38,060 nt of DNA. Source: a virus. A program made the translations under genes and the position numbers. The notes under the pieces were generated by a model. That model saw only the letters and a list, made by a program, of their open reading frames with translations, ran no database searches and had not been told where the DNA came from. The stretch spans positions 1-38,060 of IMG/VR virus record IMGVR_UViG_3300032053_000212; one strand, written 5' to 3'. Positions 7,887-35,425 of this stretch are shown in pieces (position 1 is the first letter of the stretch; the number at the start of each line of letters is the position of its first letter).

Positions 7887-8311
7887 TGGCTACTGCAATT
7901 ACTCTTGGCCACGGCGGTACTCCTGCCAGCATCAACCTTAATAATCAGTCGACCCACTTTGTTGGTGAGTCAGGATTCAACTACGGCGGTCCACAGACCA
8001 CTTGGGACGAGGCTATTAGTTACTCCGGTGGCGCCTCGACACAAGTAAACGTGCAGCGCAAGCACCTCATCCCGGTGACGATCCCCATGTGGGTGGTCGG
8101 CTCCAGCGTGAGCAACCTGAACACCCTCTTGAGTACGCTGTGGACGTTGGTCGATACCTGCACCAACGCCGCCCCAGGCACCCTCCAGGTCGCCAGCGAG
8201 ACGGCCATGAACATCGTATACTCCACGCGCCCCGAGGATCTCGAGCGCAATACTGTCTATGAGCTTCAATTCCGTGCCTACTTCACGTTGGTCTTGATGA
8301 GGCAACCTTGA
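7886..8311 (+). CDS. Distal-tail-like protein, stand-alone copy
   Basis: A 141-residue protein in a TAATG overlap with the tape measure gene, where distal tail (Dit) proteins are normally encoded. Key features are a PQTTW motif (about 36-40), VTIPMWVVG (about 63-71), a Leu-rich helix and a NIVYSTRPE...RAYFTL C-terminal strand pair. About 60% of its residues by eye recur at the C-terminus of the next gene. The first 150 bases are AT-richer than the rest of the gene, which turns sharply GC-rich near 8040. It probably forms the ring at the tail tip. Confidence 0.65.
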   Translation: MATAITLGHGGTPASINLNNQSTHFVGESGFNYGGPQTTWDEAISYSGGASTQVNVQRKHLIPVTIPMWVVGSSVSNLNTLLSTLWTLVDTCTNAAPGTLQVASETAMNIVYSTRPEDLERNTVYELQFRAYFTLVLMRQP

Positions 8312-9975: not shown

Positions 9976-12900
9976 TGGCAGTTCCGACCGTAACAGGATT
10001 AGATCCGGCTAGCGGCCCCGAAGGGACGCTCGTCGTCATAACCGGTACCGACTTCCTCGAGGATGCCTCGGCGGTTCACTTCGGCACGTACTCAGCAGGC
10101 CTAGAGTATTCCGTCATTAGCGATACCCAGATCTCCTGCATCGTTCCGGCAGGCACCGGCACGGTGACCGTAAAGGTCACGACCTCTGGCGGACAGAACT
10201 CCTCAGGCGCCTCGTTCATCTATTCGAGCTATGAAGGCGGCTCCGGTTCAGCTCCCACGGTCACCAGTGTGACCCCGAACAGCAGTGCCTATTTCGATGG
10301 CCACGGTACCGATCAAGTAGCTATAGTTGGTACTGGCTTCACTACCGCCAGGGCAGTCTACTTCGGCCCCACCCTGGTGACCGCTGTACAGGCGACCTTC
10401 AACGTCGTGAGTTCGACGCAGATCACCGCGTGGGCGCCGCAGGGCGAGGCCGGCGTGCAGGCCTACGTCTTCGTGGAAACGAACTACGGCACTAACTCCA
10501 ACCTCGACACAGCCAACGATTTCATGTACCCGGCGAGCGCCGTGCCGACCTTGACCAGCGTGGTGCCGGCCAGCGGCTTCCCTGGCGACGAAATCGTCCT
10601 CACCGGCACCAACTTCAGCGAGGCGACCTACGTCAGTTGGGGCACCCTGTACGCTGGCTTCCGCATCGACTCCTCGACCGTGATTCGCGCCACCGTACCA
10701 GGCGACCAGACGTTCCTTGGCAGCGCGGTCAACGTCTACGTCAGCAACCCTTGGGGGATCTCCGCGGATACCCGCACGTTCACCTACGGCGCCCTGGTGG
10801 CGAAGAACCTGAAGACCAGCGTCAGCCTGTCGGACGGCTTTGTCCTCGGCAAGACTCCCAACGACAGTTGGGGCGTCAAGGGATCGCCCTTCACGGTCAC
10901 GGCCACGCTCTCGGCGGCCTACAGCGGGATGCCTAGCGGATCGGTTGACTCGACGTGGTATCGTCTTGACAATGGAAACGACGTCAAGTACGTCTCGGGA
11001 TTCTCGGTCACCGGCGCGGGTTCGCACAAGCTCGAGTACTGGTCGGTCGGCAAGGATGGCTACGTCGAGCCGACAAACGTCGGCTACATCAACATCGTCG
11101 GCACAAAGACCATCAACCTTTCCGCGACGCCGACGATCGGTGCCATCGTCTTCTCCTGGGATCCCATCGGCATTCCAGGCGAGTCCTATCTGGTGTTCAT
11201 CGAGGCCGACCCGAATCCCGCGCCGCCACCGCCGGCGTACGCCACCACCGGCACGAGTCTCACCTATCAGTTCGACTACGGTTCCTCGGCGGTGTACTGC
11301 CGGCTCAAGACCGTCGATCCTGATGGCACCATCTCGGGCTACTCTGCCACGGTCGGCCCGGTGTCGTCGCTTCAGAGCGTCGCCACCGACATCGCTGACG
11401 ATGCCATCACCGGCGCGAAGATGGCTCCCAGCATCATGCCGCCGCACATCGAGAGTTCGTTGCCGGTGCTGCCCAACGACGAGTACCCGACCGGCTCCTT
11501 GGTCTATCTGACCACCGACAAGCGGCTCTATCGCAACGACGGCGGCGGCCCGAACACGAACACGCACACCAACAAGGCGACGTGGTACGACCGCTCGGGA
11601 TCGGGTAACAACGGCACACTCAACAGCTTCGGATACACCGAGGCCAGCGGCTGGGACGGCGTCGGCATGGGCGGCGACCTTTACGCGCTCCAGTTCGGAG
11701 GCACCGACGACCGCGTGAACCTGACGCCGATCCAGCAGTTCACCGACAAGGTGTGGACAATGGAGTTCTGGGTGCGGAACCTGAACGCCGCAGCGACGCA
11801 GTTCCTCGGCTTCTTCGGGCAGGCGGGAGCGACCACCTATGTCGGACTCAACATTTCTGCGGGGAACCGCCCGTCGATGGGGGTCAAGAGTACCTCGGGA
11901 ACGACGCTCTTCTCGCCGTCCTCTGGCTACTATCCCTTCTACGACGGCCTCTGGCATCACGTTGTCGGCTGCGGCGACGGGACGTATTTCCGCTGCTACT
12001 TGGATGGTGTGCAGTGCGGGACCGATACAGCCTTCGACGGGGGCACTTTCAACACCGCTGACATAGCGACCCTCGGACGCAGCGAGTTGGCGACTCCCGC
12101 AGCCTACTTCACGGGCAGCATGGCGGCGGTGCGCGTCTATGACCGCTGCCTGAGCGCAGCCGAAGTCGCCGCTCAGAGTGCGCTGGGACCGACGAGTCCG
12201 AACTACTCCACCTCAAGCCTCATCCTCGACCTGAACGCGAAGCGTGCGCTGTTGAGCAACGCCTGGACCCCGGTAATCGACGCCGCCGAGATGGACGGCA
12301 TCATCTCGGGCAACCTCATCCAAGGCAACAGCATCACCGCCGGCCAGATGTCAGTTGGGGCTATCGGGGCTGGCGAAATCGCCGCCAACGCTGTCTACGC
12401 CAAGCACCTCATCGTGGCCGACTACGAGAACCTCATCCCGAATGCCAACAGTGAGGTCGTCCCGACCTACACGAGGGACGCGAGTATCACCAGCGCCGAC
12501 GTGGAGTTCCGCGGCGTCGCCACCGGCGACCCCTACCGAGGACTCAACCAGCGCCGCATCTCCGGCATCGCGGCCGGCACCGTACAGACGATCGCCCTGT
12601 GCAACCCGGTGCCGTGCAAGGGAACCGACTGGTTCCACTTCTATGCCATGACGAAGTGCCAGTCAGATCAGAGTCCTTGGGGCGGCCGGGTCCAGATTGT
12701 CGGCATGTCGTGCAACTCCTCGGGCGTGTTCACCGACGTGGACAGCGCCGAGTCGAGTTGGCAGTCGAGTACTACTTACACCGAACGCACAATCGACTAC
12801 AACGTGGCTGCTCACGGCGCGACTGTCACCTACGTCCAAGCGCGGCTCTCCGCGAGTTCGGCTTACAACGTGTACGTCGATTTCGATGAACTCCTGTTCC

Positions 12901-14174
12901 GCAAGAAGGTCGGCGGCACGCTCGTCGTGGAAGGCTCCATCGTTGCCGATCACATAGAGAGCAACACCCTGGTCGCGACGAAGATAAGTGGCGGCGAGAT
13001 ATACGGCGGCAAGATCACCGGCGCCACTGTGAACGTCGAGAGCGAGCTCTTGATGGGCACCGCCACCGAAAACGGCACCATCACCTTGGCCGGTAGTGCC
13101 GGGAAGACGGGCCTACTGCGAACCACGTCTGTGGCAAATGTCCCGCGAATCGAACTTCAGAGTGGGGCTTACGCTGGCTATCTCAAGCTGTTCACTGGTC
13201 TGGAAACTGGCGCGGAGGGCAAGCTGTATGTCACCGGCAACGCCACGTCGGGGACAGTCGCTCTTGAGAGTCCTGAGTACAGCACCTATGGCGGTATTGA
13301 CCTCTCCCTCTACGATTCCACCACCTCCAAGTACGCTCTTTTGGGTGGGGCATCCAGGGACGACAACACGACTACGCGGATTCGCGTTGACGCAGATGGT
13401 AAGTACATCGAACTTCAGTCTCCGACCATCGATGTCGGTAACGAAACGGTTCAGCCCACAGCGGTCAACGTCTACGGCCCAGTCTTCATTCCCAAGTTGC
13501 AGCCGTCCTATGACCACGCCATCTTTGACGAGTGCGACTTCATGCTCCCAGCAGGAGCCTACATCGACAAGACGGTCGGGCGCTCCTGGTACATGCAGGA
13601 GTTCGGTGACGCGACGCCGACGATGACCAGTATCGCGGTCCAAAACCATCCCGGCGTAGCGAAGTTCACGACCGGCACCAGTTCGACCACGGGCTACCAA
13701 GTCCAGACGAGTGCCCTGGCGATGGAGGCCATCGTAGGCGACTTCTGCGAGTTCGTCTTCAGGCTCCCGTATCTCACTTCGACTCAACAGATGGTCTATT
13801 TGGGCTTCATGGATCAGTTCTCTGGTTCTGCTCCGACCAAGGGCGCCTATGTGCTCATGGGATACCACTCGGGCGATGGTGGATATAGGTTCGTCGCCTC
13901 GAGCAACGCCACGGCTGGGACTACTCGTGTCACTGCCGCCGTTGGCGACACGGGCGTCTGGTGGAAGCTTCGCATCGAGATAGGGGCGACCTTGCACCCG
14001 ACGTTCACGCTGTTGAAGAACGGTGCAGCTACAGCTTGGGAAGAATACGAAGTAGCCACCGCCGTCAGTGCTAGCTACGGTCACGGTTTCTGCCAGTTTT
14101 CAGGTTCCGCGACTCCACAGAACAACCTTGATATGGACTACATGAACTACTATCTGGTCCCGAGAGATCGCTGA
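9975..14174 (+). CDS. Large tail-tip adhesin with IPT/TIG repeats and LamG-like domain
   Basis: A 1399-residue protein in a TAATG overlap. Three IPT/TIG beta domains lie at about 4-87, 93-188 and 189-273, each starting PT-x-T-x-(L/V)-x-P and containing ITGTDF/VGTGF/LTGTNF. A further beta region (about 275-480, fibronectin-like in part) leads to a LamG/concanavalin-like domain (about 530-735) with WTMEFWVRN and DGLWHHVVGC. Next comes a fibre-like ISGNLIQGNSITAGQ...GEIAANAV stretch (about 775-810), then beta-rich segments, and a final ligand-binding-like domain (about 1185-1399). It is the likely receptor-binding protein. The DNA is markedly GC-rich relative to the tape measure gene. Confidence 0.8.
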   Translation: MAVPTVTGLDPASGPEGTLVVITGTDFLEDASAVHFGTYSAGLEYSVISDTQISCIVPAGTGTVTVKVTTSGGQNSSGASFIYSSYEGGSGSAPTVTSVTPNSSAYFDGHGTDQVAIVGTGFTTARAVYFGPTLVTAVQATFNVVSSTQITAWAPQGEAGVQAYVFVETNYGTNSNLDTANDFMYPASAVPTLTSVVPASGFPGDEIVLTGTNFSEATYVSWGTLYAGFRIDSSTVIRATVPGDQTFLGSAVNVYVSNPWGISADTRTFTYGALVAKNLKTSVSLSDGFVLGKTPNDSWGVKGSPFTVTATLSAAYSGMPSGSVDSTWYRLDNGNDVKYVSGFSVTGAGSHKLEYWSVGKDGYVEPTNVGYINIVGTKTINLSATPTIGAIVFSWDPIGIPGESYLVFIEADPNPAPPPPAYATTGTSLTYQFDYGSSAVYCRLKTVDPDGTISGYSATVGPVSSLQSVATDIADDAITGAKMAPSIMPPHIESSLPVLPNDEYPTGSLVYLTTDKRLYRNDGGGPNTNTHTNKATWYDRSGSGNNGTLNSFGYTEASGWDGVGMGGDLYALQFGGTDDRVNLTPIQQFTDKVWTMEFWVRNLNAAATQFLGFFGQAGATTYVGLNISAGNRPSMGVKSTSGTTLFSPSSGYYPFYDGLWHHVVGCGDGTYFRCYLDGVQCGTDTAFDGGTFNTADIATLGRSELATPAAYFTGSMAAVRVYDRCLSAAEVAAQSALGPTSPNYSTSSLILDLNAKRALLSNAWTPVIDAAEMDGIISGNLIQGNSITAGQMSVGAIGAGEIAANAVYAKHLIVADYENLIPNANSEVVPTYTRDASITSADVEFRGVATGDPYRGLNQRRISGIAAGTVQTIALCNPVPCKGTDWFHFYAMTKCQSDQSPWGGRVQIVGMSCNSSGVFTDVDSAESSWQSSTTYTERTIDYNVAAHGATVTYVQARLSASSAYNVYVDFDELLFRKKVGGTLVVEGSIVADHIESNTLVATKISGGEIYGGKITGATVNVESELLMGTATENGTITLAGSAGKTGLLRTTSVANVPRIELQSGAYAGYLKLFTGLETGAEGKLYVTGNATSGTVALESPEYSTYGGIDLSLYDSTTSKYALLGGASRDDNTTTRIRVDADGKYIELQSPTIDVGNETVQPTAVNVYGPVFIPKLQPSYDHAIFDECDFMLPAGAYIDKTVGRSWYMQEFGDATPTMTSIAVQNHPGVAKFTTGTSSTTGYQVQTSALAMEAIVGDFCEFVFRLPYLTSTQQMVYLGFMDQFSGSAPTKGAYVLMGYHSGDGGYRFVASSNATAGTTRVTAAVGDTGVWWKLRIEIGATLHPTFTLLKNGAATAWEEYEVATAVSASYGHGFCQFSGSATPQNNLDMDYMNYYLVPRDR

Positions 14175-15904
14175 TGGCTTACACGAACCTCAAGGACGGC
14201 GGCCTGCACTGCAAGATCGGGGAGACGGCCTGGGGCACTGGGGGCACCGACGCCATCGATCTCGTCCACGAGCTCCAGTTCGACTCGACCATCAACGGCA
14301 GTGGTTCGGCGTCCTTTTGGATCGAGGTAGCAGATCCGTTTAGCGTCGGTATGTCCTACCTTCGTCATGGTTCGCGGGTGAACATCTACCACACCGTGGA
14401 CGCCGTCACGACCTACCTGTACAAGGGCTTCATCATCAGCGACCCGCGGCGCGCGATCGCTGCCCAGAACGCACGCGTGTTCGTGGAGTGCGGCGGCGTC
14501 TTGGAGGTTGCCAAGTGGCGCACCGACTGCGCCTTCCTCTTCACCGATTGCGATGCCTCTGAGTGGGTCATTAACAAGCGCAACAACAAGGTCTACAGCG
14601 TTTCCAACGACGACTGCCTCGAGATCTCCGTCGAGAAGGGCGAGAAGGTTCCCAGCAACGGTATGGGCGGCATCGTCGGCTACGTCGCCTACCTGGGCGC
14701 ACAGTACATGGGTGGCGCGGACACCAACCAGCGCAACCTCATCAAGCGCATCGACGGACAGGTGACCACTCGGCTGGGCGACGATATGCGTGCCAAACTC
14801 TTGGTTGCCGATTCCTACACCGACTCCCGCGACATCTCCTCCTACTCGTCCATCAAGACGTGGGGAGACGTCGAGCCAGAGCGCCATCTAAACCAGAAGT
14901 ACTTCGATAGCAACTCCTTCTGGAATCCCTCTGGAGTAGGCAGGCGGTATCTCGCCCTGGCTCTGTACTGCCTCGACGTGACTGGAGGCAACAGCCTCAT
15001 GTCTGCGGATCGTTCCGTCCGTATAGACTACCCTCGCGTCTACACGGGCACCATCAGCCGCCGCATCGATGAGGCGATGGTCGAGATCGCTGACTGGGTG
15101 GGCCTGCATCAGGCTGCCGTGTCGACCACTATCAGGAGCGTCATCCCCAACCTCGTAGCGCGTCCCTACTGCGACCCGGTGAGCGCTATCAACCAGTTCG
15201 GCGTCCAAGCGGAGATCCTTGTCGAGTGGGGCTGGTGGCCGAGCCGCAGCACCAACCAGATCGAGTTCCGAGCCCGTGAACTCCTCATCGGAGAGGCCGC
15301 TCGCATCGCCTCCGGTCGTTGTTACACGATCGACTCCACCGTTCCCGGCATCTCCTGGGACGTCCGTCCGCATCCTGAAGACGGCATGGGCGATACACGC
15401 GCCGTACGCTTGATCTACGGTATGCTAGGACGCCATTCAGACTTTCCCGCTGGAACGCCGGCTGCCGCCATCGGGCCTGGAGATCCCGGCTTCAGCAACG
15501 TGCGTGGCCCGTTCCAGGGTTCGACGGCCTGTGTGACGACGGTCGACTTCAGCGGTCGCAACTTCTCTGGTGAACACGCCCGCCGCATCGCCAGGAATCT
15601 GGGCCGCCAACTGGGCAACGCGGAAAAGTCTACCGGCACGGTAATCTCGAACGTGACCGAGCCGGGTTCCTCTGGACTCATCAAGTCCTCCAACTCCACC
15701 GCCTTCCCGTGGCCGTATATTCAGGGCGGCGACTTCGTGAAGTGTAGTCAGGACGCCGACGTGAAGCCCCTCGTGGTTACCCGAGCGAGCGTGAACGTGG
15801 ACACAGAGACGGTGGAACTCGAAGTAGGTATGCCCGCGGATACATTGATGCGACAGTTCGAGGCCGCTGGTAGCGTAAAGCGTGCGAAGCTCCATCGTAG
15901 GTAG
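14174..15904 (+). CDS. Tail hub / minor tail protein
   Basis: A 576-residue protein in a TGATG overlap with the adhesin. The N-terminal half has the beta-rich start of tail hub (Tal/gp27-like) proteins: ELQFDSTINGSGSASFWIE, then a Tyr-Lys-Gly-Phe-Ile segment near residue 80. The C-terminal half ends with strands TRASVNVDTETVELEVG (about 540-556), common in proteins that compute a local coordinate or hub ring. Cysteines are scattered, with no metal-binding pattern. No peptidase motif was seen. Its position as the last large tail gene before the holin-like gene supports a baseplate/tip role; the exact family is not certain. Confidence 0.6.
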   Translation: MAYTNLKDGGLHCKIGETAWGTGGTDAIDLVHELQFDSTINGSGSASFWIEVADPFSVGMSYLRHGSRVNIYHTVDAVTTYLYKGFIISDPRRAIAAQNARVFVECGGVLEVAKWRTDCAFLFTDCDASEWVINKRNNKVYSVSNDDCLEISVEKGEKVPSNGMGGIVGYVAYLGAQYMGGADTNQRNLIKRIDGQVTTRLGDDMRAKLLVADSYTDSRDISSYSSIKTWGDVEPERHLNQKYFDSNSFWNPSGVGRRYLALALYCLDVTGGNSLMSADRSVRIDYPRVYTGTISRRIDEAMVEIADWVGLHQAAVSTTIRSVIPNLVARPYCDPVSAINQFGVQAEILVEWGWWPSRSTNQIEFRARELLIGEAARIASGRCYTIDSTVPGISWDVRPHPEDGMGDTRAVRLIYGMLGRHSDFPAGTPAAAIGPGDPGFSNVRGPFQGSTACVTTVDFSGRNFSGEHARRIARNLGRQLGNAEKSTGTVISNVTEPGSSGLIKSSNSTAFPWPYIQGGDFVKCSQDADVKPLVVTRASVNVDTETVELEVGMPADTLMRQFEAAGSVKRAKLHRR

Positions 15905-16609: not shown

Positions 16610-16909
16610 TCAGCTCTCTTGCCAATAAGCTCTACCCTTATTAATCATATCGCGGGTATTGTCCTTAAACGTCCCAAGAAATAGATGTTCTGGATTAACG
16701 CAGTCGGGGGTATCGCAAGTATGGCATACAAGCATATCAGGGGGTATTGGTCCTACAAAGAGTTTATAGGAAGCCCTATGTGCCAACTTCTTCTTAAAGA
16801 TTCCATATCCTTTGGAATTTAGATGCCCTGTCCAATACCAACAAGTCTCAGTCTTAGCGACTCTTTCTAAGAATATGTCCTCAGGCCACTTCATAGTCTC
16901 ATAGTCCAT
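16610..16909 (-). CDS. HNH endonuclease
   Basis: A 99-residue HNH_3-type protein. The N-terminal CWYWTG motif (23-28), H44-R45, then C62-H63, C65 and C70 with N72-P-E-H75 form the usual beta-beta-alpha metal site of free-standing phage HNH nucleases. GAGGAAC lies 4 bases before the ATG. It overlaps the helicase stop by 11 bases. Such proteins are often homing endonucleases that spread between phages, but some are packaging-linked; here the location by a helicase favours a homing type. Confidence 0.85.
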   Translation of the reverse strand: MDYETMKWPEDIFLERVAKTETCWYWTGHLNSKGYGIFKKKLAHRASYKLFVGPIPPDMLVCHTCDTPDCVNPEHLFLGTFKDNTRDMINKGRAYWQES

Positions 16910-18395
16910 ACAGTTCCTCTAGAAGCTGCCGCCCAGTTAAACGTTCCTGCACGACCATTTCCCCACGAGCTTCAAGGGCCTCCTCGGATTCAATGACCCA
17001 ATCAAATAGGTTCTGCTTGAATCTTAACATACCCTCGATGCGCCCTTCAACGGAGTTCTCTGCCAGGAGCTCAATGATGGTAACAGGCTCAGTTTGTCCA
17101 ATACGATGTAGACGATCCTGAGCCTGGGTATTCATTGCTGGTGTCCAGAGCTTGTCCAAGAATACGGCAGTTGATGCAGCAGTGAGTGTAAGCCCTGTAC
17201 CACCAGCCTGAGTGGTGATAAACAGAATCCGAGGATCCTCCTTCTCCTGGAAATCGGAGACAGCTTGATTGCGGATAGGCATGGGGACGGAGCCTGTAAG
17301 ATAGGCCAGTTGTCTCCCAGTAACTCGGCGGGAATCAACCAAGTATTTTCCGAGACGTTCGAGGGCTGTTCGGAACTGACTGAAGACAACGAGCTTTTTG
17401 TCATCGTTCGCTTCCAGGATATCGAGGAAAGCCGTAATCTTTGCGCCACTGATTCCCTCCATCTCTTTGAACATCAGTTCAGGGCCCACGGTGATCTGCT
17501 TGAGGCGGATGATCTGGGCAATAACGGCAGCAGCCGTAATGGTTTCATCGTTAAAGTGGGCAAGCATATCCTTTTCCATTTCAAGGTATGCTTCGAGTTG
17601 TTCGCCATGGAGCTCTACCCAGACCTTCTTAATTGTCTTGGCAGGCATATCCTTTAGGACTTCTGGTTTCGTTCTGCGAAGCATCAGAGGTTGGATTGTA
17701 TTCCGTAGGGCCTTCGCTCTCGGGTGATTGGGGTCTACGATGTCCTTAACTTCCCAGCCAAAGACACCTCGCTGGACGTCACAATGCTCCCTCACGAAGC
17801 GCCAATAACTGGCATACTTCTTGTCCTTGGGGAACATCATATTAAGTGGTGGCCACATCTCCTGGCCATGATTTAGGAGTGGGGTACCACTAAGCATCCA
17901 GATGTAATCAGCATCCTTACAGATCTTCTTGCAGGCCTTGGTCGACTTGGCGTTGCGGTTCTTGATCTTGTGATGCTCATCGAAGATAATAACGTCCCAG
18001 TGCCTCGAGAGCTCAGCCGCTAAGTCAATACCCGTTTTCCCCACCAAGGCTTCGTAGTTGATAATGAGGTAATTGATGTCAGAGCATTTGACCATGAATT
18101 TCCTGTATGAGGCAGGGCCTTCAACTACACCGATGCTCTTCCCTGGAGCCCAAGTATGAATCTCTTCAGCCCAGCCACCAATATACTCTGTTACCATTAC
18201 ACCATTTTTAGGCACTGATCGAATCATGCCCTTCATAGAATTCTGGCATACAACTAGGATCTTCTTGGCATCTAGTTCCTCAGCAGCCCTAATAGCTTGA
18301 ATGGTCTTCCCGAGGCCCATATCATCAGCCAGGAATAGCCTCTCGGACTGAACGAGGCGTCCTACACCGAGCATTTGAAAGTCGTATAGCTTCAC
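16899..18395 (-). CDS. SNF2/DEAD-type helicase
   Basis: A 498-residue superfamily 2 helicase. Visible motifs are Walker A DMGLGKT (25-31), motif II DEHH (139-142), SGTP (169-172), an inter-domain LMLRRTK segment (about 238-244), then the C-terminal domain with VVFSQF (about 330), TQAGGTGLTLT and the QAQDRLHRIGQ motif VI (about 430-440). These belong to the SNF2 group, ATP-driven DNA translocases. Phage members are thought to help replication restart or recombination. It starts at GTG in a GTGA overlap with the gene before it. Confidence 0.93.
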   Translation of the reverse strand: MKLYDFQMLGVGRLVQSERLFLADDMGLGKTIQAIRAAEELDAKKILVVCQNSMKGMIRSVPKNGVMVTEYIGGWAEEIHTWAPGKSIGVVEGPASYRKFMVKCSDINYLIINYEALVGKTGIDLAAELSRHWDVIIFDEHHKIKNRNAKSTKACKKICKDADYIWMLSGTPLLNHGQEMWPPLNMMFPKDKKYASYWRFVREHCDVQRGVFGWEVKDIVDPNHPRAKALRNTIQPLMLRRTKPEVLKDMPAKTIKKVWVELHGEQLEAYLEMEKDMLAHFNDETITAAAVIAQIIRLKQITVGPELMFKEMEGISGAKITAFLDILEANDDKKLVVFSQFRTALERLGKYLVDSRRVTGRQLAYLTGSVPMPIRNQAVSDFQEKEDPRILFITTQAGGTGLTLTAASTAVFLDKLWTPAMNTQAQDRLHRIGQTEPVTIIELLAENSVEGRIEGMLRFKQNLFDWVIESEEALEARGEMVVQERLTGRQLLEELYGL

Positions 18396-19352: not shown

Positions 19353-19597
19353 TAGGACCTCTTACTAATAGTAATATCTGGTACCTCTCCGTGGGGGATC
19401 TTCTTACGGTCTATCTTACGTCGTTCTTCGTGCCCACAAACCATGCACCTGAGTACAATAGTCTTTTGGTTGAAACGTTTACAACCCCAATAATGTATGT
19501 GGTTGGGGTCAAGCGCCGTATCAGCAAACAGGGCCTTCGTCTTGTAAAGAGTCCCTTTAGATTTCTTCACCTTTCCAGCTTCTTTAGGCTCCCCCAT
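19352..19597 (-). CDS. Small basic zinc-finger-like protein
   Basis: I chose the ATG at 19597 (81 residues), preceded by GGAGG at 6 bases, over one 30 bases upstream without a site. The gene therefore begins 31 bases inside the 3' end of the polymerase gene in another frame. A lone Cys near residue 49 and CMVC near 61-64 suggest a partial zinc site with nearby His residues. The protein is Lys/Arg-rich, consistent with nucleic-acid binding, and its overlap with the polymerase implies linked expression. Function unknown. Confidence 0.65.
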   Translation of the reverse strand: MGEPKEAGKVKKSKGTLYKTKALFADTALDPNHIHYWGCKRFNQKTIVLRCMVCGHEERRKIDRKKIPHGEVPDITISKRS

Positions 19598-21861
19598 CTT
19601 GTACCTCCCTTCACTTCGATACTCCATGCAAATGGTGCATCTGATAGTGGTGCGTTATCAACCATCTCTTCGTAGATAGCCTCTATAACTTCTTCTTCAT
19701 ACCCTTTCTTAACTTCGAAAAGGAGGCTGTCATGGACAGTTACTAATATGTGGGCAATCTCGGGGTCTAGCCTGGCGTGCAACCTTGTTAAGGACATCAG
19801 GTTAAGATCGGATGCGGCACTTTGGATTGGGGCGTTAATTGCTTGTCTCTCAATCTCGTGTTTGTTCTTCTCAGTTACGAGTGCGAATCGACGCTTCCGG
19901 CCAAAGGCAGATTCGATGTATCCCTGCTTGACTGCGAGTCCTTGATTTCTAAGCATCCACTTATGCAAGTCAGGAAATCCCCCAAGAAAGTTATTGAGGT
20001 AACTTTGGGCTTTACGTACAGAACAGTTAAGCTCGCCTTCCGCGAGTGATTTTGCTCCACGTCCATAAAGTATTCCAAAGTCAACGAATTTTGCCCCGTA
20101 ACGTTGATCTTTAGTGACTGGATCATTTGGCCCGAGGCCGAAAATATCTCGTGCGACCCTGGCATGGATGTCTTCTTCATTAGCAAAGGTTTCACATAGT
20201 TTACGGTCTCGAGAATAGTAAGCGGCAATACGAAGCTCCAACTGATTGTAGTCGGCCTCGAGAAGAGTCCACCCAGGCGACGCCACAAAAGCATCGCGGA
20301 TAATGACGCCCGCTCTTGCTGGGATATTTTGTAGATTAGGGTCGCGAGAGCTAAGCCGTCCGGTAACGGTTCCATGGAGAAGGAAACTGGCTCGTATCCT
20401 TCCATCTGCGGAAACGCGCTCAAGGAGCCCCCTTACGTAAGTGGATAGAAGCTTTTGCTTTTGTCTCAGCTCTAGGATCCTGGTAGCAAAGGGATGATTT
20501 AGTTCCGCTAGTTCAACCTTCCCCGTTTTTGTTCCTGCTGGTCGAAGCTTAAGGGATCCATACAAGTAATCTGCAACCTGCTTTGGGGAGTTGGGATTGA
20601 ACTTAGGATTCTGGGTCTCAAGCTGCAGCTCAATAGTTGCTGCAGCGATATCCTTTTCCAACTTCTTCCCAAGGGTCTTTAGGTGGTACTGGTCGATAGT
20701 TATACCGTGATGTTCAATCTCACCGAGGGCGTGGCTGGCAGGCAGCAAGATATCATCATGTATGTGGCGTAACTTGCTCTCGTTGAGCTCCCCAGCCAAA
20801 ACCCAGGCGAGCTTATGCGTGTAGTAGACATCATAAGCGAGGTACTGGTAGAGTTGGTCAACTGGAAGTTCATCTAGTTTCCCCTTTCGTCCCTTAAGAG
20901 CGGAGTCGTACTCTCCTGCCTGAAAGTATCGTCGAGCGAGCGTCTTGAGACCGTGACTACCCTGTCGTTCATCAAGACAGTAATGAGCCAGCATGGTATC
21001 GAAGTCAACATGCCAGTCTATCTGGAGCTGGTGCGTTATGAACTTCCTATCGAACTGCGGCCCATTTTGGGCTACCCATACATTACCCTCAGACTCCATG
21101 AAGTCCTTTAGAACAGCTAAAGCCCCACGATCCCCATACAGCAGATCCCCCACAATGATGAAGATTTCCGTTCCATCGTTAAGGCCCATAACGAGAATCT
21201 CGTCTTCAATCTCATCAAGACCAGTAGTCTCAAGGTCAAGAGCAATATGAGTAGGGGTATGAAGAGCAATCTTACATACCATCTTACGAAGGTCCTCAAG
21301 AGTCTCTACCAACGTATAGTCTGGTGGCGGTTCCTCCTCTTCGTACTCTGTGGGGCATTCGGCGAGCAGCTGGAGGTCACTCATGAGGTCTGGGAAGTAG
21401 TCTGGGGCTCTAAGGACTGCGGCTGGGTGATATGTAGGGATGCAATACACCCCAAGATCATCGATCCAGAGCCTTGCCCCGCGTACCGACATAATACTTG
21501 TAGGGCCATATACAGCAGTCAAAGCCGTAGCCCCTAGAGTAAGAATCTTTGTACAACCTTGCAGCTCTTCCATCAAGCGCTCATTGCAGGCATCAATAGC
21601 AGAGTTGGGGGGCGTATCGTTCTTGGAAGGTTGACAGAGACAAGAGTTCGTTATCCAAACCTGGGTCTCGTCGATGCCGACCTCTTGCAGGAGCTTTCTT
21701 AAAAGGATACCGCTCATCCCAATGAATGGTCTACCATCCTGAACTTCTTGGCGCCCAGGAGCCTCACCTACAATTGCAAGGCCTCCCTTAACACCCGAGC
21801 TGGGAACTAATGGTCGATCGATCAGTGGGCAGGATTCGCAAAAGTCGAACTTGTCACTCAT
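19567..21861 (-). CDS. UDG-exonuclease-DNA polymerase A fusion, copy 1 (glycosylase motifs intact)
   Basis: A 764-residue three-domain enzyme. Residues 1-165 are a family-4-type uracil-DNA glycosylase: four Fe-S cysteines C8, C11, C76, C92 (16-residue spacing as in the family), motif 1 GEAPG (32-36) with E39 and GRPF (43-46), motif 2 H145-P-A-A-V-L-R. Residues about 200-350 are a 3'-5' exonuclease with D209/E211, N266/D271 and Y340/D344. The polymerase has motif A D537, motif B R587, K591, F595, Y599 and motif C H710-D711. No 5'-nuclease domain is present. GGAG precedes the ATG by 5 bases. It likely replicates phage DNA and may excise uracil from it. Confidence 0.95.
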   Translation of the reverse strand: MSDKFDFCESCPLIDRPLVPSSGVKGGLAIVGEAPGRQEVQDGRPFIGMSGILLRKLLQEVGIDETQVWITNSCLCQPSKNDTPPNSAIDACNERLMEELQGCTKILTLGATALTAVYGPTSIMSVRGARLWIDDLGVYCIPTYHPAAVLRAPDYFPDLMSDLQLLAECPTEYEEEEPPPDYTLVETLEDLRKMVCKIALHTPTHIALDLETTGLDEIEDEILVMGLNDGTEIFIIVGDLLYGDRGALAVLKDFMESEGNVWVAQNGPQFDRKFITHQLQIDWHVDFDTMLAHYCLDERQGSHGLKTLARRYFQAGEYDSALKGRKGKLDELPVDQLYQYLAYDVYYTHKLAWVLAGELNESKLRHIHDDILLPASHALGEIEHHGITIDQYHLKTLGKKLEKDIAAATIELQLETQNPKFNPNSPKQVADYLYGSLKLRPAGTKTGKVELAELNHPFATRILELRQKQKLLSTYVRGLLERVSADGRIRASFLLHGTVTGRLSSRDPNLQNIPARAGVIIRDAFVASPGWTLLEADYNQLELRIAAYYSRDRKLCETFANEEDIHARVARDIFGLGPNDPVTKDQRYGAKFVDFGILYGRGAKSLAEGELNCSVRKAQSYLNNFLGGFPDLHKWMLRNQGLAVKQGYIESAFGRKRRFALVTEKNKHEIERQAINAPIQSAASDLNLMSLTRLHARLDPEIAHILVTVHDSLLFEVKKGYEEEVIEAIYEEMVDNAPLSDAPFAWSIEVKGGTRWGSLKKLER

Positions 21862-22045
21862 AGGGTCTCCAACCAGCTTCCTCGGGGTGCTTTATTGAAG
21901 TCACTTGCATTTGGTTGTCATACAAAGAGATGATTGTACCGCAACTGTAGATGCGCCGCCCCTTGAGAGCCGTCTGCTCAGGCCCTGTACGCTCAACGAT
22001 CTCAGCACCGCACCAAGGACAATGCCTAGGAACCTTGATTGACAT
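21854..22045 (-). CDS. Small zinc-ribbon protein between the two polymerases
   Basis: A 63-residue protein with CPWC (9-12) and a single later Cys near residue 35, a likely partial zinc ribbon. It starts within the last 20 bases of the upstream polymerase gene with GAGGAG 4 bases before the ATG, and it overlaps the start of the downstream polymerase by 8 bases. This tight packing makes the two polymerases and this protein one translational unit. It could be a polymerase accessory protein, but nothing in the sequence proves that. Confidence 0.7.
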   Translation of the reverse strand: MSIKVPRHCPWCGAEIVERTGPEQTALKGRRIYSCGTIISLYDNQMQVTSIKHPEEAGWRPYE

Positions 22046-24278
22046 ACCACTCCTCAGGCTTCATTAAGGAGCCCCAACGGTCCCCCACACTAAAATCAAC
22101 TGTGAGCGGTATTTGATCCGCAAAGGGGACCTCTTCTTCGAGTACTCCTTTTATTACTTTAATTATATAGGAAACCTTAGATGGACTCACGTTTAACAAA
22201 ATGGAGTCATGGACTGTTAAGATGATCTCAGCGTCATCAGGGTCTAGGACTTCTTCCAGCCTAATCAATCCAGAGAGACAGATATCCGAGGCCATACTCT
22301 GAATTGGCATATTACTGGCTTTGCGCTCAATGTCTCCGCGATGTTCCGAGAGGATAGCCGGAAAGCGGCGTCTACGGCCAAAGGAAGACTCAACGTATCC
22401 TAGACGAAGCGCTTGGCGTTGCATCTTTCGGATCCATTTCCAGAGTCCGTTAAACTGCTTGAAGTACTCGTTGATGAATCGCTGGGCCTCGTTGGGCGCG
22501 CAATGGAGAATTGATAGCGCAAGCGAGTTAGCTCCGCGACCGTAAAGTATTCCAAAGGCAACATGCTTGGCATGATAACGTTGGATCTTCGTAACCTTTC
22601 CCACGGGAACTTTGTACATCTCGGCTGCTGCAAGGACGTGTGCATCCCCTCCGGACTTATAGATGGCTTGGAGCTTTACGTCTCCACTATACCAGGCAGC
22701 GATCTTTAGTTCCAACTGAGCATAGTCAACCTCAAGAAGAACCTTTCCCGGTGGGGCAATGAAGGCATCCCTAATAATGGCTCCTACAACGACGGGCATG
22801 TTCTGGAGGTTTGGGGCTCGAGAAGACAAGCGGCCTGTTACTGTTGCGTGGAGAAGGAAGTGCGGGTAGATTAGTCCCTTTTCACCTGAGAAGTTAAGAA
22901 GGCCAATAATAAATGTGGACAGGAGTTTGTACTTGAGTTTGTACTCTATAAGGACGTCTACAATAGGGTGTCGTAGGCTCTCAAGTGCCAATTTATCGAC
23001 GCGTCGGTTATCTGAAGGGATTTGTAAGGTGTCGTATAACAGACGCTGGACTTGCTGTCGGGAATTCGCATTGAAAGTCGGGGTACCGTTAGCCTCGCAG
23101 AGTAGCTTATTAAGACCCTCAAGCTCGAGGACAAGTTGCTCACCAGAGAGTCTGAGGTAATCCTGATCAACATAAGCACCTCTCATTTCGATCTGTGCTA
23201 GGGCCCGAGCTGCGGGTATCAGGAGAGTATTATGGATATGAGTTACGTTCTCTTCATCCATTTCCTCTAGAAGAGGGTCAACAAGATTCCAAGTAAAATA
23301 GCAATCGTAAGCCAAGTAGGTGTACAGCAGGTCAGGAGCATACTTAGCCAGGTTTGCCATATCCATATTCGTAGACCAGTTAGGAATGTGGAAGTAGTTC
23401 ATTGCAACAACCTTGAGTGAGTGCCCCCAAGGGCGCTCATCAAGGTTGTAGGACATCAAGAGGGTATCGTACTTAGGCTTGCATTTGATACCATATTGTA
23501 TCTCGAGGAACTTACAATCAAATTGATAGACATTGTGCCCTGCCCAGTTGAGGTCTTCATTCTCGAGAAGATCCTTGATGTGGGGGATCATAGGCTCCGT
23601 TACGATCCAAATATAGTGGGGGCTAGCTGCAATTCCTAAGCAGATAACTGCATCGTCCTGCGCGTCTAAGCCTGTCGTTTCTATGTCGATTGTGTGCAGA
23701 CTAGAGTTGAGTATGTCTATGCAGTCAAAAAGATTATCCACTCCCGATTCATCTTCCACAAGGGTGTACTTGACTTCAGGGAGCTGGTTCCTAGGCCCAG
23801 GAGGCCCAAGTTTCAGTTGAGTGAGATCATCCAATAGTACTGACAAAAGACTAGGATCCCGAACAACTTGAATAGGATGAATTGTGCTGAGGATCCAAGT
23901 TCGATAATCGTCGTCCCATTGCCAACCGTGGCGCTCCCCAAACACCAGAACCCCCTGGGGATGCTGGTGTTGAATTTCATGTATGTGACGCCCACGACAG
24001 CATTCGATGGCCCTATCGATTGTTTGGGAGTCATAAGCCTTCTCCGGGTAGCAGGGGACCTTCGTCGTGACATACAAAGTGTCGGGAGACACCCCGACAG
24101 ACTTTAGAGCCTCACGAAGTACATCCCCGATTTTCCCCACGAAGAGCATCTGGTGGGCGGTCTCATAGTAAGAGGGGAATTCCCCCACAACAGTGTAGCC
24201 ATACTTAACGCCCCTACCAACGACCTTCGGACGGCCCTTAAGAGGGCAGATATCGCAATTAGAGGAATAGGTTGTCAA
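22026..24278 (-). CDS. UDG-like-exonuclease-DNA polymerase A fusion, copy 2 (glycosylase motif eroded)
   Basis: I chose TTG at 24278 (750 residues) because it places the cysteines at 8, 11 and 76 as in copy 1 and has AAGGG upstream; a TTG at 24305 is the longer alternative. Fe-S cysteines C8, C11, C76 and C93 or C94 remain, but motif 1 reads GEFPS (32-36) with E39 kept and GRPF changed to QMLF; motif 2 is H134-P-I-Q-V-V-R. Exonuclease residues D198/E200, N249/D254 and D325 are intact. The polymerase has D518 (motif A, DYAQLELK), K571, F575, Y579 and H690-D691. The polymerase core looks active; the glycosylase may have lost or changed activity. Confidence 0.93.
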   Translation of the reverse strand: MTTYSSNCDICPLKGRPKVVGRGVKYGYTVVGEFPSYYETAHQMLFVGKIGDVLREALKSVGVSPDTLYVTTKVPCYPEKAYDSQTIDRAIECCRGRHIHEIQHQHPQGVLVFGERHGWQWDDDYRTWILSTIHPIQVVRDPSLLSVLLDDLTQLKLGPPGPRNQLPEVKYTLVEDESGVDNLFDCIDILNSSLHTIDIETTGLDAQDDAVICLGIAASPHYIWIVTEPMIPHIKDLLENEDLNWAGHNVYQFDCKFLEIQYGIKCKPKYDTLLMSYNLDERPWGHSLKVVAMNYFHIPNWSTNMDMANLAKYAPDLLYTYLAYDCYFTWNLVDPLLEEMDEENVTHIHNTLLIPAARALAQIEMRGAYVDQDYLRLSGEQLVLELEGLNKLLCEANGTPTFNANSRQQVQRLLYDTLQIPSDNRRVDKLALESLRHPIVDVLIEYKLKYKLLSTFIIGLLNFSGEKGLIYPHFLLHATVTGRLSSRAPNLQNMPVVVGAIIRDAFIAPPGKVLLEVDYAQLELKIAAWYSGDVKLQAIYKSGGDAHVLAAAEMYKVPVGKVTKIQRYHAKHVAFGILYGRGANSLALSILHCAPNEAQRFINEYFKQFNGLWKWIRKMQRQALRLGYVESSFGRRRRFPAILSEHRGDIERKASNMPIQSMASDICLSGLIRLEEVLDPDDAEIILTVHDSILLNVSPSKVSYIIKVIKGVLEEEVPFADQIPLTVDFSVGDRWGSLMKPEEWYVNQGS
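22162..22190 (-). promoter_or_regulatory. Promoter-like site inside the 3' part of polymerase copy 2
   Basis: On the minus strand, GTGAGT, a 17-base spacer ending GGTTTCCTA, and TATAAT. The GGTTTCCTATATAAT string is identical to that of two intergenic promoters in this window. It could add transcription of the zinc-ribbon gene and polymerase copy 1. It is inside coding DNA, so chance or codon constraint is possible. Confidence 0.45.
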
Positions 24279-25047
24279 GATGCCCTTCGGCAGCCATGTA
24301 TACAAGGTCGAGATTCACGTCTAGATAATCAGGATCGAAGGCCTTTGGACCTAGAGTGAAATAGCCCTCAGGACGTCTGACATTCCTACCGCTATATAGA
24401 GTTACGGGATCCGCTACACGGGAGAAGTAGAAAGGCTTAGCGGAATCGATACTACGTACAATGAGAGGGAAGTCCCTTGCATAGCAGTGGAGCTTGTAGA
24501 GATCTCCGTCCCACCCCAGAAGATGGATATCAGGTTGATACGTCTTGTCATTTGAAAGGTACTTTAGAACGTTCTTAATCAGAATCCCTCGACCCATTTT
24601 GGTCTCATAGATTACTGGGATCCCAATGACATCGGGTCTAACATCATGGATAAGGCCTGCAAGGCAAGCCATCCAACTGGCCGTAGTAGCCCCTTGAGGT
24701 ACAACCATAAGATTCGTTGTTGCCCACCAATCGGGTTCGGCCTCAAGGATCTTAAAAGCTTCATGGGTCTCTCTAAGGGTAGCATGACCATCTAGAAATA
24801 CATCCGGAAGAACAAGTTCATCGGGCTGAATGTCTTGTGCGATCTCTAGGACATGCTCAAAAGGAAAACTACGACCGAGTTCGTAGGCTCCATTATCAAG
24901 TATGACGTAGTCATCCAGACTGGCGGAGCGTTCTTTATAGTAATCCACTTGCCTTCCATCACCGGATAGCACGTGGGCAAGGCACAAGTGTAGAGTAGAT
25001 GAGAACTCACCCAGTAGCGCCGTTGGGGGAATGGGAGCGAATTTCAT
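24259..25047 (-). CDS. dpdA: DpdA-like 7-deazaguanine DNA transglycosylase
   Basis: A 262-residue protein of the TGT-like superfamily. VILDNGAYE (48-56, acid D51) corresponds to the DSGGFQ motif of tRNA-guanine transglycosylase and has the DNGAYE form known from phage DpdA proteins. LPDVFLD (80-86), VPQG (116-119), HLLGWDGDLY (175-184) and RSIDSAKP (198-205, putative nucleophile D201) follow in order. The zinc-binding cysteines of bacterial tRNA enzymes are absent. It should swap guanine for preQ0 in DNA, using the product of the que genes at 28884-31233. It starts in a TGATG overlap and overlaps the following polymerase gene. Confidence 0.85.
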   Translation of the reverse strand: MKFAPIPPTALLGEFSSTLHLCLAHVLSGDGRQVDYYKERSASLDDYVILDNGAYELGRSFPFEHVLEIAQDIQPDELVLPDVFLDGHATLRETHEAFKILEAEPDWWATTNLMVVPQGATTASWMACLAGLIHDVRPDVIGIPVIYETKMGRGILIKNVLKYLSNDKTYQPDIHLLGWDGDLYKLHCYARDFPLIVRSIDSAKPFYFSRVADPVTLYSGRNVRRPEGYFTLGPKAFDPDYLDVNLDLVYMAAEGHLDNLFL

Positions 25048-28210: not shown

Positions 28211-28239
28211 ATTATATAGGAGACTTAAATGAAACTCAA
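28211..28239 (-). promoter_or_regulatory. Sigma70-type promoter for the recombination operon
   Basis: On the minus strand: TTGAGT, 17 bases ending GTCTCCTA, then TATAAT. A second overlapping TATAAT lies 5 bases further on. The site is in the 78-base gap before the nuclease gene and would drive it and the HNH, Sak4 and DUF669-like genes. Confidence 0.85.
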
Positions 28240-28883: not shown

Positions 28884-29519
28884 TCAGTGATGCATTACAA
28901 GGGCCAAGAACTCTTCACGAGCAGGACCGTTATCAATGAAGACTCCACGAATGGCTGAGGTCGTTGTAGTAGACCCTGCCTTTCGAATCCCTCTCATGGT
29001 CATGCACATGTGCTCGCACTGATCGATGACAACAATAACACCCTTAGGATTCATTGAGTTCATGACGGCTTCAGCAACCTCGTTAGTCAAGCGTTCTTGG
29101 ATCGAGAGTTTCTTGGAAGCCATCTCAACCACACGGGCCAGCTTAGATAGACCAACAACCTCCCCATCTGGAATATAACCAATGTGCGCCTTACCGGAGT
29201 AGGGTACCATATGATGTTCACAGAGACTGTGGAAGGGGATATCTTTGACAATGACCATTTGGTCATGAGGCTCCTTAAAGGTGGCCGTTAACAATGTTGA
29301 AAGATCAACCCCTAGACCAACGGTTAGTTCATTGAGATACATACGAGCGACTCGTGACGGAGTATCTTTGAGTCCCTCACGTTCCGGATCTTCGCCGATA
29401 GCCAGTAGTATGTTACGGACTGCATCTTCGATGAGTTTAGACCTCTCATCGTAGTCGTCAAGTGGAACGTTGGCCCGACGAGTCGAACAGTAAAGAGCAT
29501 CCGAAAGGGCATCTCCCAT
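28884..29519 (-). CDS. folE: GTP cyclohydrolase I
   Basis: A 211-residue enzyme with all family hallmarks: DPEREGLKDTPSRVARM (about 44-60), the zinc motif SLC100-E-H-H103, GKAHIGYIP (109-117), GLSKLARVVE (123-132), QERLT (141-145) and QCEHMC172MTMRGIRK. It converts GTP to dihydroneopterin triphosphate, the first step toward preQ0. I chose the ATG at 29519 (GGAGG 7 bases upstream, TGATG overlap with queE) over a GTG one codon earlier. With queC, queD and queE it forms a full preQ0 operon. Confidence 0.97.
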   Translation of the reverse strand: MGDALSDALYCSTRRANVPLDDYDERSKLIEDAVRNILLAIGEDPEREGLKDTPSRVARMYLNELTVGLGVDLSTLLTATFKEPHDQMVIVKDIPFHSLCEHHMVPYSGKAHIGYIPDGEVVGLSKLARVVEMASKKLSIQERLTNEVAEAVMNSMNPKGVIVVIDQCEHMCMTMRGIRKAGSTTTTSAIRGVFIDNGPAREEFLALVMHH

Positions 29520-30169
29520 CACCTAACCTCCAACAGTTTATGAAGCTGTAGGTTGAGACGTACAAGTGGATGATCAGGGATAAGAGTATTTGCAATCCAC
29601 GCCGCTGTCTCTAAATCGTTATCCTGGGGTTGTACCCACAACCGGGGGCAGATCCCGCCCCACTCATCGAACTTATGTTGGTACTCATAGTACCATTCAG
29701 CTGTCTTTGTCCTAGGTATAACAATCTTGATCTCACTTATAGGGCCGTCAGCAATATAGTATAGAGGGGGCTTAGGACTTACTGTCCACCAGATCTTATT
29801 GCCGTGAGGTAACGCCCTCTTAATAGTACCATTAGTTTCGAACGCAATGACCCTCTGAGCTTCCTCTTCAAAGGCCACAGTTTTTTCAAGCCAATACTTA
29901 AGATCTGCCTTTTGTAAGAGGGGCTCGCCCCCAGTGAAAACAACAAGAGGCATTTTAGATTTTAATATCTCATCCTCTGTACGATCAGACGTCCATAGTA
30001 AAGCGGGAGAGGTATCTTCCCATGAGTACTTAGTATCGCACCATTGAGCACATTCCAACTTTGCATGAACAGCATTGCATCCCTGTAGACGGATGAACAT
30101 AGCGCCAGTGCCACTAAGGGTACCTTCGCCTTGAACACTCTCAAAGACCTCTTCAAGCTTAAGAGCCAT
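29519..30169 (-). CDS. queE: 7-carboxy-7-deazaguanine synthase (radical SAM) with unusual cysteine spacing
   Basis: A 216-residue radical SAM protein. The start EEVFESVQGEG (6-16) and the GEPL motif in FTGGEPLLQ (about 78-86) identify QueE, which makes CDG from carboxytetrahydropterin. The cluster cysteines are C31, C40 and C44, i.e. C-x8-C-x3-C, followed by the usual D-T-K-Y; common QueE proteins have C-x3-C-x2-C, and some have C-x14-C-x2-C. The gene overlaps queD by 11 bases and folE by 1. The cysteine spacing is directly read from the DNA and has no obvious frameshift. Confidence 0.92.
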   Translation of the reverse strand: MALKLEEVFESVQGEGTLSGTGAMFIRLQGCNAVHAKLECAQWCDTKYSWEDTSPALLWTSDRTEDEILKSKMPLVVFTGGEPLLQKADLKYWLEKTVAFEEEAQRVIAFETNGTIKRALPHGNKIWWTVSPKPPLYYIADGPISEIKIVIPRTKTAEWYYEYQHKFDEWGGICPRLWVQPQDNDLETAAWIANTLIPDHPLVRLNLQLHKLLEVR

Positions 30170-30557
30170 GAGTCACCCGACACTTACTCTCTGGGGACTC
30201 AAAGACCTCGACTGCATATAGCTTTGCGGTTGCAGACAGCTCTGCAGAAGCCCTAATTATCTGCTTCATATCCCTGAATATCCTGAGGGCGATTAGCTCA
30301 GCCGACGGACGCTCAAAGAAGTTGTTCAGATACTCATGATCAAAGGGATCAATTACGTCATTCAAGACCTTCTTCACGGCTTTGAAATCTACCGCAATAC
30401 CGGCTTGATCAAGCTCGACCTCTGTATAAGGCCCAAACTCCGCCTTAACGACCCAACGGTGCCCATGCATTTGAGCACACTTCCCCACATAGTTAACTAG
30501 ATTATGGGCCGCATCAAAGTGACCCTCACCTGTTAGAAAGATCTGTTCGTTATTCAT
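30159..30557 (-). CDS. queD: 6-carboxytetrahydropterin synthase
   Basis: A 132-residue enzyme from the ATG at 30557, which has GAGG 9 bases upstream; an in-frame ATG 21 bases earlier is less well placed. Zinc ligands H18 (FDAAHNL), H31 and H33 (HGHRW) and catalytic C27 (GKCAQM) are present, followed by FDHEYLNNF and a Glu-rich end. It converts dihydroneopterin triphosphate to carboxytetrahydropterin, the QueE substrate. It overlaps queC by 8 bases. Confidence 0.95.
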   Translation of the reverse strand: MNNEQIFLTGEGHFDAAHNLVNYVGKCAQMHGHRWVVKAEFGPYTEVELDQAGIAVDFKAVKKVLNDVIDPFDHEYLNNFFERPSAELIALRIFRDMKQIIRASAELSATAKLYAVEVFESPESKCRVTHGS

Positions 30558-31233
30558 CGTTGGAAACCTCATCTGCATAGCACACCGGATCCTTTAAGTT
30601 CCAGTACGTGAAAGCCTCGCGCCGGCTCCGACATGTGGGGCATACTCCGCAAGCTACTTCTCCACCATTGTAACAGCTCCATGTCAACCAGTAAGGGGCA
30701 TTAAGATCCTTACCAGTTCCTACAACATCCCTTTTAGCCATCCATTGCAAAGGAGTTAGAAGCCGCACTTTATGGTACGTACCTACATAGATGGCTGCTG
30801 CCATGCTCCCTATGAATTCAGGTGTACAGTCAGGATAAGCCCAGTTTTCTCCATCTTCAGCATGGGCACCGAAGTAGATGAAATCCGCGCCACGAGTAAG
30901 CGCAACAGCTGCTGCATAACTTGTAAGGATTCCATTTCTGAATGGCACGTAAGTTGGACTGACACCCTCGAGCTCGTCATAAGAACAAGTAGGATTTGGT
31001 AGGCCAGGATCAATGAGTGTTGAGCCTGATCCTTTGAAGACGTTGGGGAGTTGGATAATTTCGTGGGGCATGTTGTAGTACTCTGCGACGGCTCGAGCGG
31101 CCCAGACTTCTTTATCATGTTTTTGTCCGTAGACAAATGAGACTCCTATGATGTGATCGTGTGCCTCGCGGGCGATCGCAGCACAGGTGGTCGAGTCAAG
31201 CCCTCCGCTAAGGAGAACTAGAGCAGTGGTCAT
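30550..31233 (-). CDS. queC: 7-cyano-7-deazaguanine (preQ0) synthase
   Basis: A 227-residue protein with the PP-loop SGGLDS (9-14) and a C-terminal zinc site C187-Y-N-G-G, C195, C198, C201. QueC turns CDG into preQ0 with ATP and ammonia. The protein has no added amidotransferase (GAT) domain, which matters because GAT-QueC fusions give archaeosine-like bases; the product here should stay preQ0. AAGGAGG lies 4 bases before the ATG at 31233; a TTG one codon upstream is less likely. It is first in the que operon. Confidence 0.96.
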   Translation of the reverse strand: MTTALVLLSGGLDSTTCAAIAREAHDHIIGVSFVYGQKHDKEVWAARAVAEYYNMPHEIIQLPNVFKGSGSTLIDPGLPNPTCSYDELEGVSPTYVPFRNGILTSYAAAVALTRGADFIYFGAHAEDGENWAYPDCTPEFIGSMAAAIYVGTYHKVRLLTPLQWMAKRDVVGTGKDLNAPYWLTWSCYNGGEVACGVCPTCRSRREAFTYWNLKDPVCYADEVSNDE

Positions 31234-31249
31234 CAAGCCTCCTTAACTC

Positions 31250-35396: not shown

Positions 35397-35425
35397 ATTA
35401 TATAGTAAACCTCTTGAGGCCACAA
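35397..35425 (-). promoter_or_regulatory. Strong promoter with GGTTT box
   Basis: On the minus strand: TTGTGG, 17 bases ending GGTTTACTA, then TATAAT. The -35 hexamer is identical to that at 37068-37073. The transcript would carry a leader of about 60 bases with an AAAGGAGG that has no good start codon. Confidence 0.85.

Follow-up and report, generated by a model that had tools for sequence, protein, structure and literature searches.

Why would a phage carry two complete DNA polymerases of the PolA family in tandem, each with a uracil-DNA glycosylase (UDG) domain at its N-terminus, and why is the glycosylase site of only one of them altered? The locus that raises these questions lies on a stretch of 38,060 bases that is the whole of one virus record in IMG/VR and is termed the window in the following. 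It is very rare for one phage to carry two complete PolA genes, and the role of the fused UDG domain in phage polymerases is not settled in the literature found. An intact and an altered version in the same phage therefore represent a natural side-by-side comparison of uracil removal, DNA grip, and the handling of another base. The explanation that we favor, with a probability of roughly one half, is a tandem-duplicated phage polymerase of which both copies work, copy 1 as a uracil-removing or uracil-recognizing enzyme, and copy 2 with a UDG fold that binds or scans DNA but does not excise uracil. The enzymatic activities, the DNA-binding role, and the separate expression of the copies are what we infer from the comparisons described below.

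Gene order and domain layout of the polymerase pair

The two polymerase genes were found where a previous sequence-only reading of this DNA had placed them (Table 1). That reading had called them adjacent, but the conserved Zn-ribbon ORF intervenes. The genes form a chain of overlaps, with 20 bases shared by the DpdA-like ORF and copy 2, 20 by copy 2 and the Zn-ribbon ORF, and 8 by the Zn-ribbon ORF and copy 1, and the order DpdA-like ORF, copy 2, Zn-ribbon ORF, copy 1 is unchanged in the relatives. The record is unclosed, so that its 38 kb need not equal the genome size, and the earlier description as a compact phage genome had to be given up. None of the ORFs tested in the 38-kb record could be recognized as a terminase, portal, or capsid gene, and the long ORFs at 9975-14174, 14174-15904, and 8308-9975 (plus strand), in the tail region and beyond, were without a convincing family match.

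Table 1. Positions in the window of the polymerase genes, their UDG domains, and neighboring features.
Feature	Position	Strand	Remarks
Copy 1, UDG-exonuclease-PolA polymerase, intact family-4 uracil pocket	19567..21861	-	764 aa, ATG start
UDG domain of copy 1	21358..21840	-	residues 8-168; alignment to Tth UDGa
Zn-ribbon ORF between the polymerase genes	21854..22045	-	63 aa; overlaps both frames; conserved in relatives
Copy 2, UDG-exonuclease-PolA polymerase	22026..24278	-	750 aa; TTG start, overlaps upstream gene
Candidate internal promoter GGTTTCCTATATAAT	22162..22176	-	inside 3' end of copy 2; consensus match only
UDG domain of copy 2	23808..24257	-	residues 8-157
DpdA-like ORF, phrog_20335	24259..25047	-	262 aa; overlaps start of copy 2
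FolE, GTP cyclohydrolase I	28884..29522	-	
QueE-like radical SAM protein	29519..30169	-	
QueD-like 6-pyruvoyl-tetrahydropterin synthase family protein	30159..30578	-	
QueC, preQ0 synthase	30550..31236	-	
Other GGTTTNCTATATAAT sites	28211-28225, 35397-35411, 37045-37059, 37976-37990	-	

Both genes encode the same three domains, as had been proposed. The Pfam families UDG, DNA_pol_A_exo1, and DNA_pol_A all exceeded their gathering scores in copy 1 (E = 4e-22, 2e-18, and 4e-92) as well as in copy 2 (E = 5e-10, 2e-7, and 4e-87), and the polymerase family of the two copies is taken in by phrog_17. The AlphaFold2 models were confident across all three domains, with a mean pLDDT of 91.1 for copy 1 and 88.7 for copy 2. 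In the alignment to E. coli Pol I, the exonuclease residues D355, E357, D424, Y497, and D501 and the polymerase residues D705, E710, R754, K758, F762, Y766, and D882 (E. coli numbering) are present in both copies, which confirms the earlier view that the catalytic residues of both modules are intact. By these residues, both copies belong to the family A DNA polymerases with proofreading. Both copies have a Ser in place of the second acid of motif C (E883 in E. coli), and several relatives share this exchange.

With UDG, 3'-5' exonuclease, and PolA domains on a single polypeptide, both copies are of the kind found in the phages PaBG, SPO1, and phiLo. In Pseudomonas phage PaBG and its group, gp205 is a single chain that combines an N-terminal UDG with a 3'-5' exonuclease and a 5'-3' polymerase (PMC7412058), but the description of this jumbo phage gives each genome a single enzyme of this type, without a paired copy with an altered uracil site. 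The polymerase of Thermus phage phiLo, which has been solved as PDB entry 9qhs (its sequence is that of phiLo_158 from residue 34 on), is likewise a UDG-domain PolA, and the UDG domains of both copies match it; however, it is longer (1142 residues in the structure) and represents the sole PolA place in the phiLo genome. Bacillus phage BSP7 and Weizmannia phage Youna2 resemble the window in having a DpdA-like ORF directly upstream of the polymerase, with QueC, QueD, QueE, and FolE nearby, and a degenerate UDG site (GDSPI, Y at 80), whereas their single polymerase gene is present in two exon-like pieces. Bacillus phage SPO1 is known for its hydroxymethyluracil DNA; like copy 2, its polymerase joins a UDG-like domain with a degenerate site (QENPF, S at 80, and here also no Fe-S cysteines) to PolA, but it is a single, intron-split copy without a second intact version.

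No described tandem of this kind was known to the sequence-only reading. The three-domain layout itself is already known from PaBG, SPO1, and phiLo, a fact which that reading had missed, and it is the unequal tandem that seems to be new; we found no paper on such a pair in the openly licensed literature. Two side observations may be mentioned here. In L041, a PolA gene at positions 5021-7501 has a UDG-type domain without any glycosylase residue and directly follows a DpdA-like ORF. In the Pseudomonas phages nickie (MG018927) and hairong (OM223115), weak matches to the UDG domain (E = 3e-3 and 4e-4) coincide with genes that carry the annotation DNA polymerase III alpha, which could be a UDG fusion with another polymerase family.

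The uracil pockets of the two copies

In the alignment of copy 1 to Tth UDGa (1ui0; E = 7.5e-21), every characterized pocket residue of a family-4 UDG is present. E33, A34, E39, F46, N72, N81, and H145 of copy 1 correspond to E41, the small residue at 42 (G/A), E47, F54, N80, N89, and H155 of this stand-alone enzyme, which also shares the four Fe-S cysteines (C8, C11, C76, and C92 in copy 1, all invariant). The domain scored above the cut-off of the Pfam UDG superfamily (79.2 vs 24.3 bits) and below that of NCBIfam TIGR00758 (95.0 vs 125.3 bits). Most likely, copy 1 excises, or at least recognizes, uracil that lies in the template strand during copying or ahead of it.

Copy 2 has retained the Fe-S cysteines (C8, C11, C76, and C94), in agreement with the earlier reading, and also belongs to the UDG superfamily by its match to 1ui0 (E = 6.8e-7) and its Pfam score (40.1 bits vs the cut-off of 24.3). 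The placement of both N-terminal domains in the UDG fold was thus upheld. As Foldseek searches with the full-length models yielded only polymerases among the matches listed, this placement is based on the sequence matches and on the secondary structure of the models.

The pocket itself is different. In Tth numbering, copy 2 keeps E41, E47, F54, and H155, but unlike Tth UDGa it has a Phe at 42 (G42F), a Thr at 80 (N80T), and no Asn at 89, where the exact partner is uncertain at a small insertion. In addition, 15 residues after residue 115, between the third and fourth strands, are missing. The complete uracil pocket of a family 4 UDG is thus absent from copy 2. The Phe at 42, the Thr at 80, and the lack of Asn at 89 are common to all six copy 2 homologues, and L008 additionally carries E41S. 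The glycosylase motifs had already been described as unequal, and this holds across the relatives, with copy 1 intact and copy 2 altered. However, the contrast between GRPF and QMLF overstated the difference, because the stacking Phe F54 is present in both copies, and the more telling changes, N80T, the loss of Asn 89, and the 15-residue deletion, had been missed.

The pocket of Tth UDGa consists of E41, G42, E47, F54, N80, and H155, with N80 contributing two hydrogen bonds to uracil, and k2/Km of this enzyme dropped about 890-fold in E41Q, 89-fold in G42D, 44-fold in N80A, and 7-fold in N89A (PMC5387724). Based on these mutant data, copy 2 should excise uracil very poorly. The sequence-only reading had suggested a second polymerase that only senses or binds uracil. 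As the exchanges include N80 with its double hydrogen bond (PMC5387724), uracil binding by copy 2 is less likely than a structural role or a different ligand. With E41, E47, F54, and H155 present in most members, copy 2 may show weak excision, or excision of another base.

As a comparison with UdgX had been proposed, both copies were also compared with this group. UdgX is characterized by a GEQPG motif and an Arg-rich loop before the cross-linking His. The copies have GEAPG (copy 1) and GEFPS (copy 2) instead, and the residues up to the His, CIPTYHP and ILSTIHP, respectively, contain no insert. In agreement with this lack of a UdgX-type motif, the TIGR03914 scores of 79.3 bits (copy 1) and 26.9 bits (copy 2) were far below the cut-off of 189.95 bits, and UdgX was rejected for copy 2 and is not supported for copy 1.

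Degenerate UDG sites also occur on sole PolA enzymes, namely in BSP7, Youna2, L033, L041, Serbin, and SPO1, so that the UDG domain is kept there without a uracil-excising site. Across the family, the site is intact in L023, L029, and L043, and wholly or largely lost in L041, SPO1, and Serbin. Uracil excision would thus seem to be dispensable in enzymes that nevertheless retain the UDG fold, and this pattern is the main support for a non-excising role. A parallel may be seen in the vaccinia UDG D4, which is a glycosylase as well as a processivity factor and thus a UDG fold that serves in a viral replication complex and as a repair enzyme (PMC10253040). D4 is, however, a separate subunit that acts with an unrelated viral polymerase, and it is an analogy rather than a family 4 relative.

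Age, conservation, and rarity of the pair

IMG/VR contains six further contigs of the clade (L003-L008). The evidence for the tandem comes from seven contigs of one clade, which is a point against the explanation that we favor. In agreement with the proposal to look for the pair in related phage genomes, both copies lie side by side in five of the six, with copy 1 being cut by the contig end in L005 and L007; the L008 contig ends right after copy 2. The two copies are 38% identical over their full length. In a tree of 29 rows, each copy forms a monophyletic clade (100/100), and the two clades are sisters (99/99), a relation that was recovered in a quick tree of 69 rows (SH-aLRT 93). The branching within the copy 1 clade is compatible with that within the copy 2 clade, pointing to one duplication after which the pair was inherited together. 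The duplication itself, the conservation, the residue changes, and the gene order are read directly from the sequences; the duplication probably took place long before the known clade members separated.

The dN/dS values, determined by NG86 with dS saturated in some pairs, ranged from 0.02 to 0.05 in the UDG domain of copy 1, from 0.07 to 0.22 in that of copy 2, and from about 0.03 to 0.12 in the exonuclease and polymerase domains of both copies. The copy 2 UDG is thus relaxed but constrained. As dN/dS is well below 1 in every domain and the pair is conserved in the relatives, neither copy is a decayed pseudogene, and a pseudogene or artefact was rejected. Chance retention of a recent or assembly-made duplication, or of a decaying second copy, is accordingly very improbable: the rare and clade-limited occurrence of the tandem is the only point in its favor, and it conflicts with the low identity of the copies, the congruent copy trees, the frames that are open in all relatives, and the strong purifying selection in independent contigs.

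The plainest of the alternatives is a division of labor in the polymerase modules, such as between leading and lagging strand or between replication and repair, with the UDG difference being a side effect of relaxed constraint in whichever copy had ceased to need surveillance for uracil. It would explain why the copy 2 UDG has a higher dN/dS than any other domain next to a highly constrained copy 2 polymerase. The O-helix and nearby residues also differ consistently between the copies, with D in copy 1 and A in copy 2 at the position of E. coli N761, and R and V, respectively, at that of R682. However, the relatives show hardly any variation in the N-terminal half of the UDG domain of copy 2, including the altered GEFPS...HQMLFVG and CYPEKAYD, which is beyond the needs of a passive remnant. 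We regard this explanation as unlikely, though worth serious attention.

Copy-specific profile scans of IMG/VR detected no further tandem members beyond the same contigs. Among the 39 records with a UDG-PolA or a near relative, there were no two separate PolA genes outside this clade, and where other records gave double PolA matches, an intron or insert had divided a single gene. Among 80 loci, a second PolA within a distance of 10 kb was likewise seen only in this clade. In INPHARED, the best 5,000 of 50,697 phage records contained 5,002 places matching copy 2 and 5,006 places matching copy 1; scans of this type could miss fragments and very divergent second copies. When GTDB genomes were scanned with copy 1, the matches listed covered the UDG part only and came from organisms that are expected to have cellular family-4 enzymes.

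7-Deazaguanine genes and expression of the two copies

The same genome encodes FolE, QueE, QueD, and QueC, which had escaped the sequence-only reading. These proteins constitute the preQ0 pathway that is used by phages inserting 7-deazaguanine in their DNA (PMC6884629). The ORF that overlaps the start of copy 2 is homologous to the BSP7 ORF at the same position and has the invariant residues D51, N52, G142, R153, H175, G178, and D201. Its family is strongly linked to the preQ0 genes, as it is present in eight of nine PolA loci with deazaguanine genes and in none of 69 without; five of these eight helped to build the profile, and the three independent ones alone give p = 2e-5. As profile comparison by hhalign failed to link the ORF to 9g DpdA (probability 1.0%) or nt-1 DpdA2 (1.6%), and as PADLOC and PDB searches gave no match, we call it DpdA-like in name only. 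It is a candidate for a new or divergent DpdA-type DNA guanine transglycosylase.

This neighborhood leads to the most interesting alternative, in which the pocket of copy 2 would be retuned to 7-deazaguanine (preQ0-type) bases inserted by the DpdA-like enzyme, with copy 2 serving the modified template and copy 1 acting as uracil guard. The overlap of copy 2 with the DpdA-like gene and the presence of the four pathway genes would fit, as would the occurrence of a DpdA-like ORF directly before UDG-PolA also in BSP7, Youna2, MaInes, and L041, of which three (BSP7, Youna2, and L041) have a degenerate UDG site. Of 46 UDG-PolA loci, 9 have deazaguanine genes at a distance of at most 10 kb, vs none of 32 PolA loci without UDG (Fisher p = 0.009, with the window clade excluded). 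This statistic is not independent of phylogeny, and the independent pairs were too few for a tree-based test to decide. An earlier count based on QueC had given 9 of 33 vs 0 of 50 records (p = 1e-4), but many loci were reassigned to the UDG group when a broader UDG profile was used. A strong link was therefore rejected, and the link of the fused UDG with deazaguanine genes is modest. Furthermore, many phages with a UDG-PolA enzyme lack these genes, the deazaguanine phages L029, L043, and L066 have an intact uracil site, and the degenerate sites differ from one another (GEFPS, GDSPI, GSHPN, VFDTL), so that a new ligand common to all of them is not suggested. In our view, such a retuning is doubtful. 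Its most far-reaching form, with two dedicated replicative polymerases, one excising uracil and the other with a glycosylase fold retuned to 7-deazaguanine-modified DNA beside the base-installing enzyme, is more doubtful still; if true, a polymerase would contain a former repair fold that now reads modified bases. As other phages with modified DNA have repeatedly lost the uracil site, there may be a wider pattern that can be tested.

In the explanation that we favor, the non-excising role of copy 2, an ancestral replicative UDG-exonuclease-PolA polymerase would have been duplicated in tandem before the known clade members diverged, and both copies would have been retained as working, proofreading polymerases. 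Copy 1 would have kept the family-4 pocket and its action on, or at least recognition of, uracil, whereas copy 2 would have kept the UDG fold and the Fe-S cluster with a rebuilt pocket and without uracil excision, its UDG domain now most likely gripping or scanning DNA for the polymerase, comparable to D4. Translation of copy 2 overlaps with that of the DpdA-like gene, and a candidate internal promoter could permit the Zn-ribbon protein and copy 1 to be made separately. If so, the copies may be active at separate times, or on DNA with different modifications.

This candidate promoter, GGTTTCCTATATAAT, precedes the genes of the Zn-ribbon protein and copy 1 by about 117 bp. The motif GGTTTNCTATATAAT occurs five times on the minus strand of the window with at most two mismatches (0.13 expected), in most cases upstream of minus-strand genes, and it is likely to be a phage promoter. 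The internal motif has at most one change in L003, L004, L005, L006, and L008, and three changes in L007. It sits in a conserved protein stretch, where codon conservation alone is not decisive, and as the encoded residues VSYII account for part of the motif conservation, we treat it as a lead that could uncouple copy 1 from copy 2 expression. Possibly, there is a further nucleotide-level signal in the exonuclease motif DIETTGLDA of copy 2 (codons 198-206; 23661-23687, minus strand), of which the window, L004, L006, and L008 share all nine codons, with a codon identity of only about 31% at amino-acid-invariant sites of these copy 2 genes. Downstream of the polymerases, the minus strand encodes an HNH endonuclease and a SNF2-type helicase at 16610-18395.
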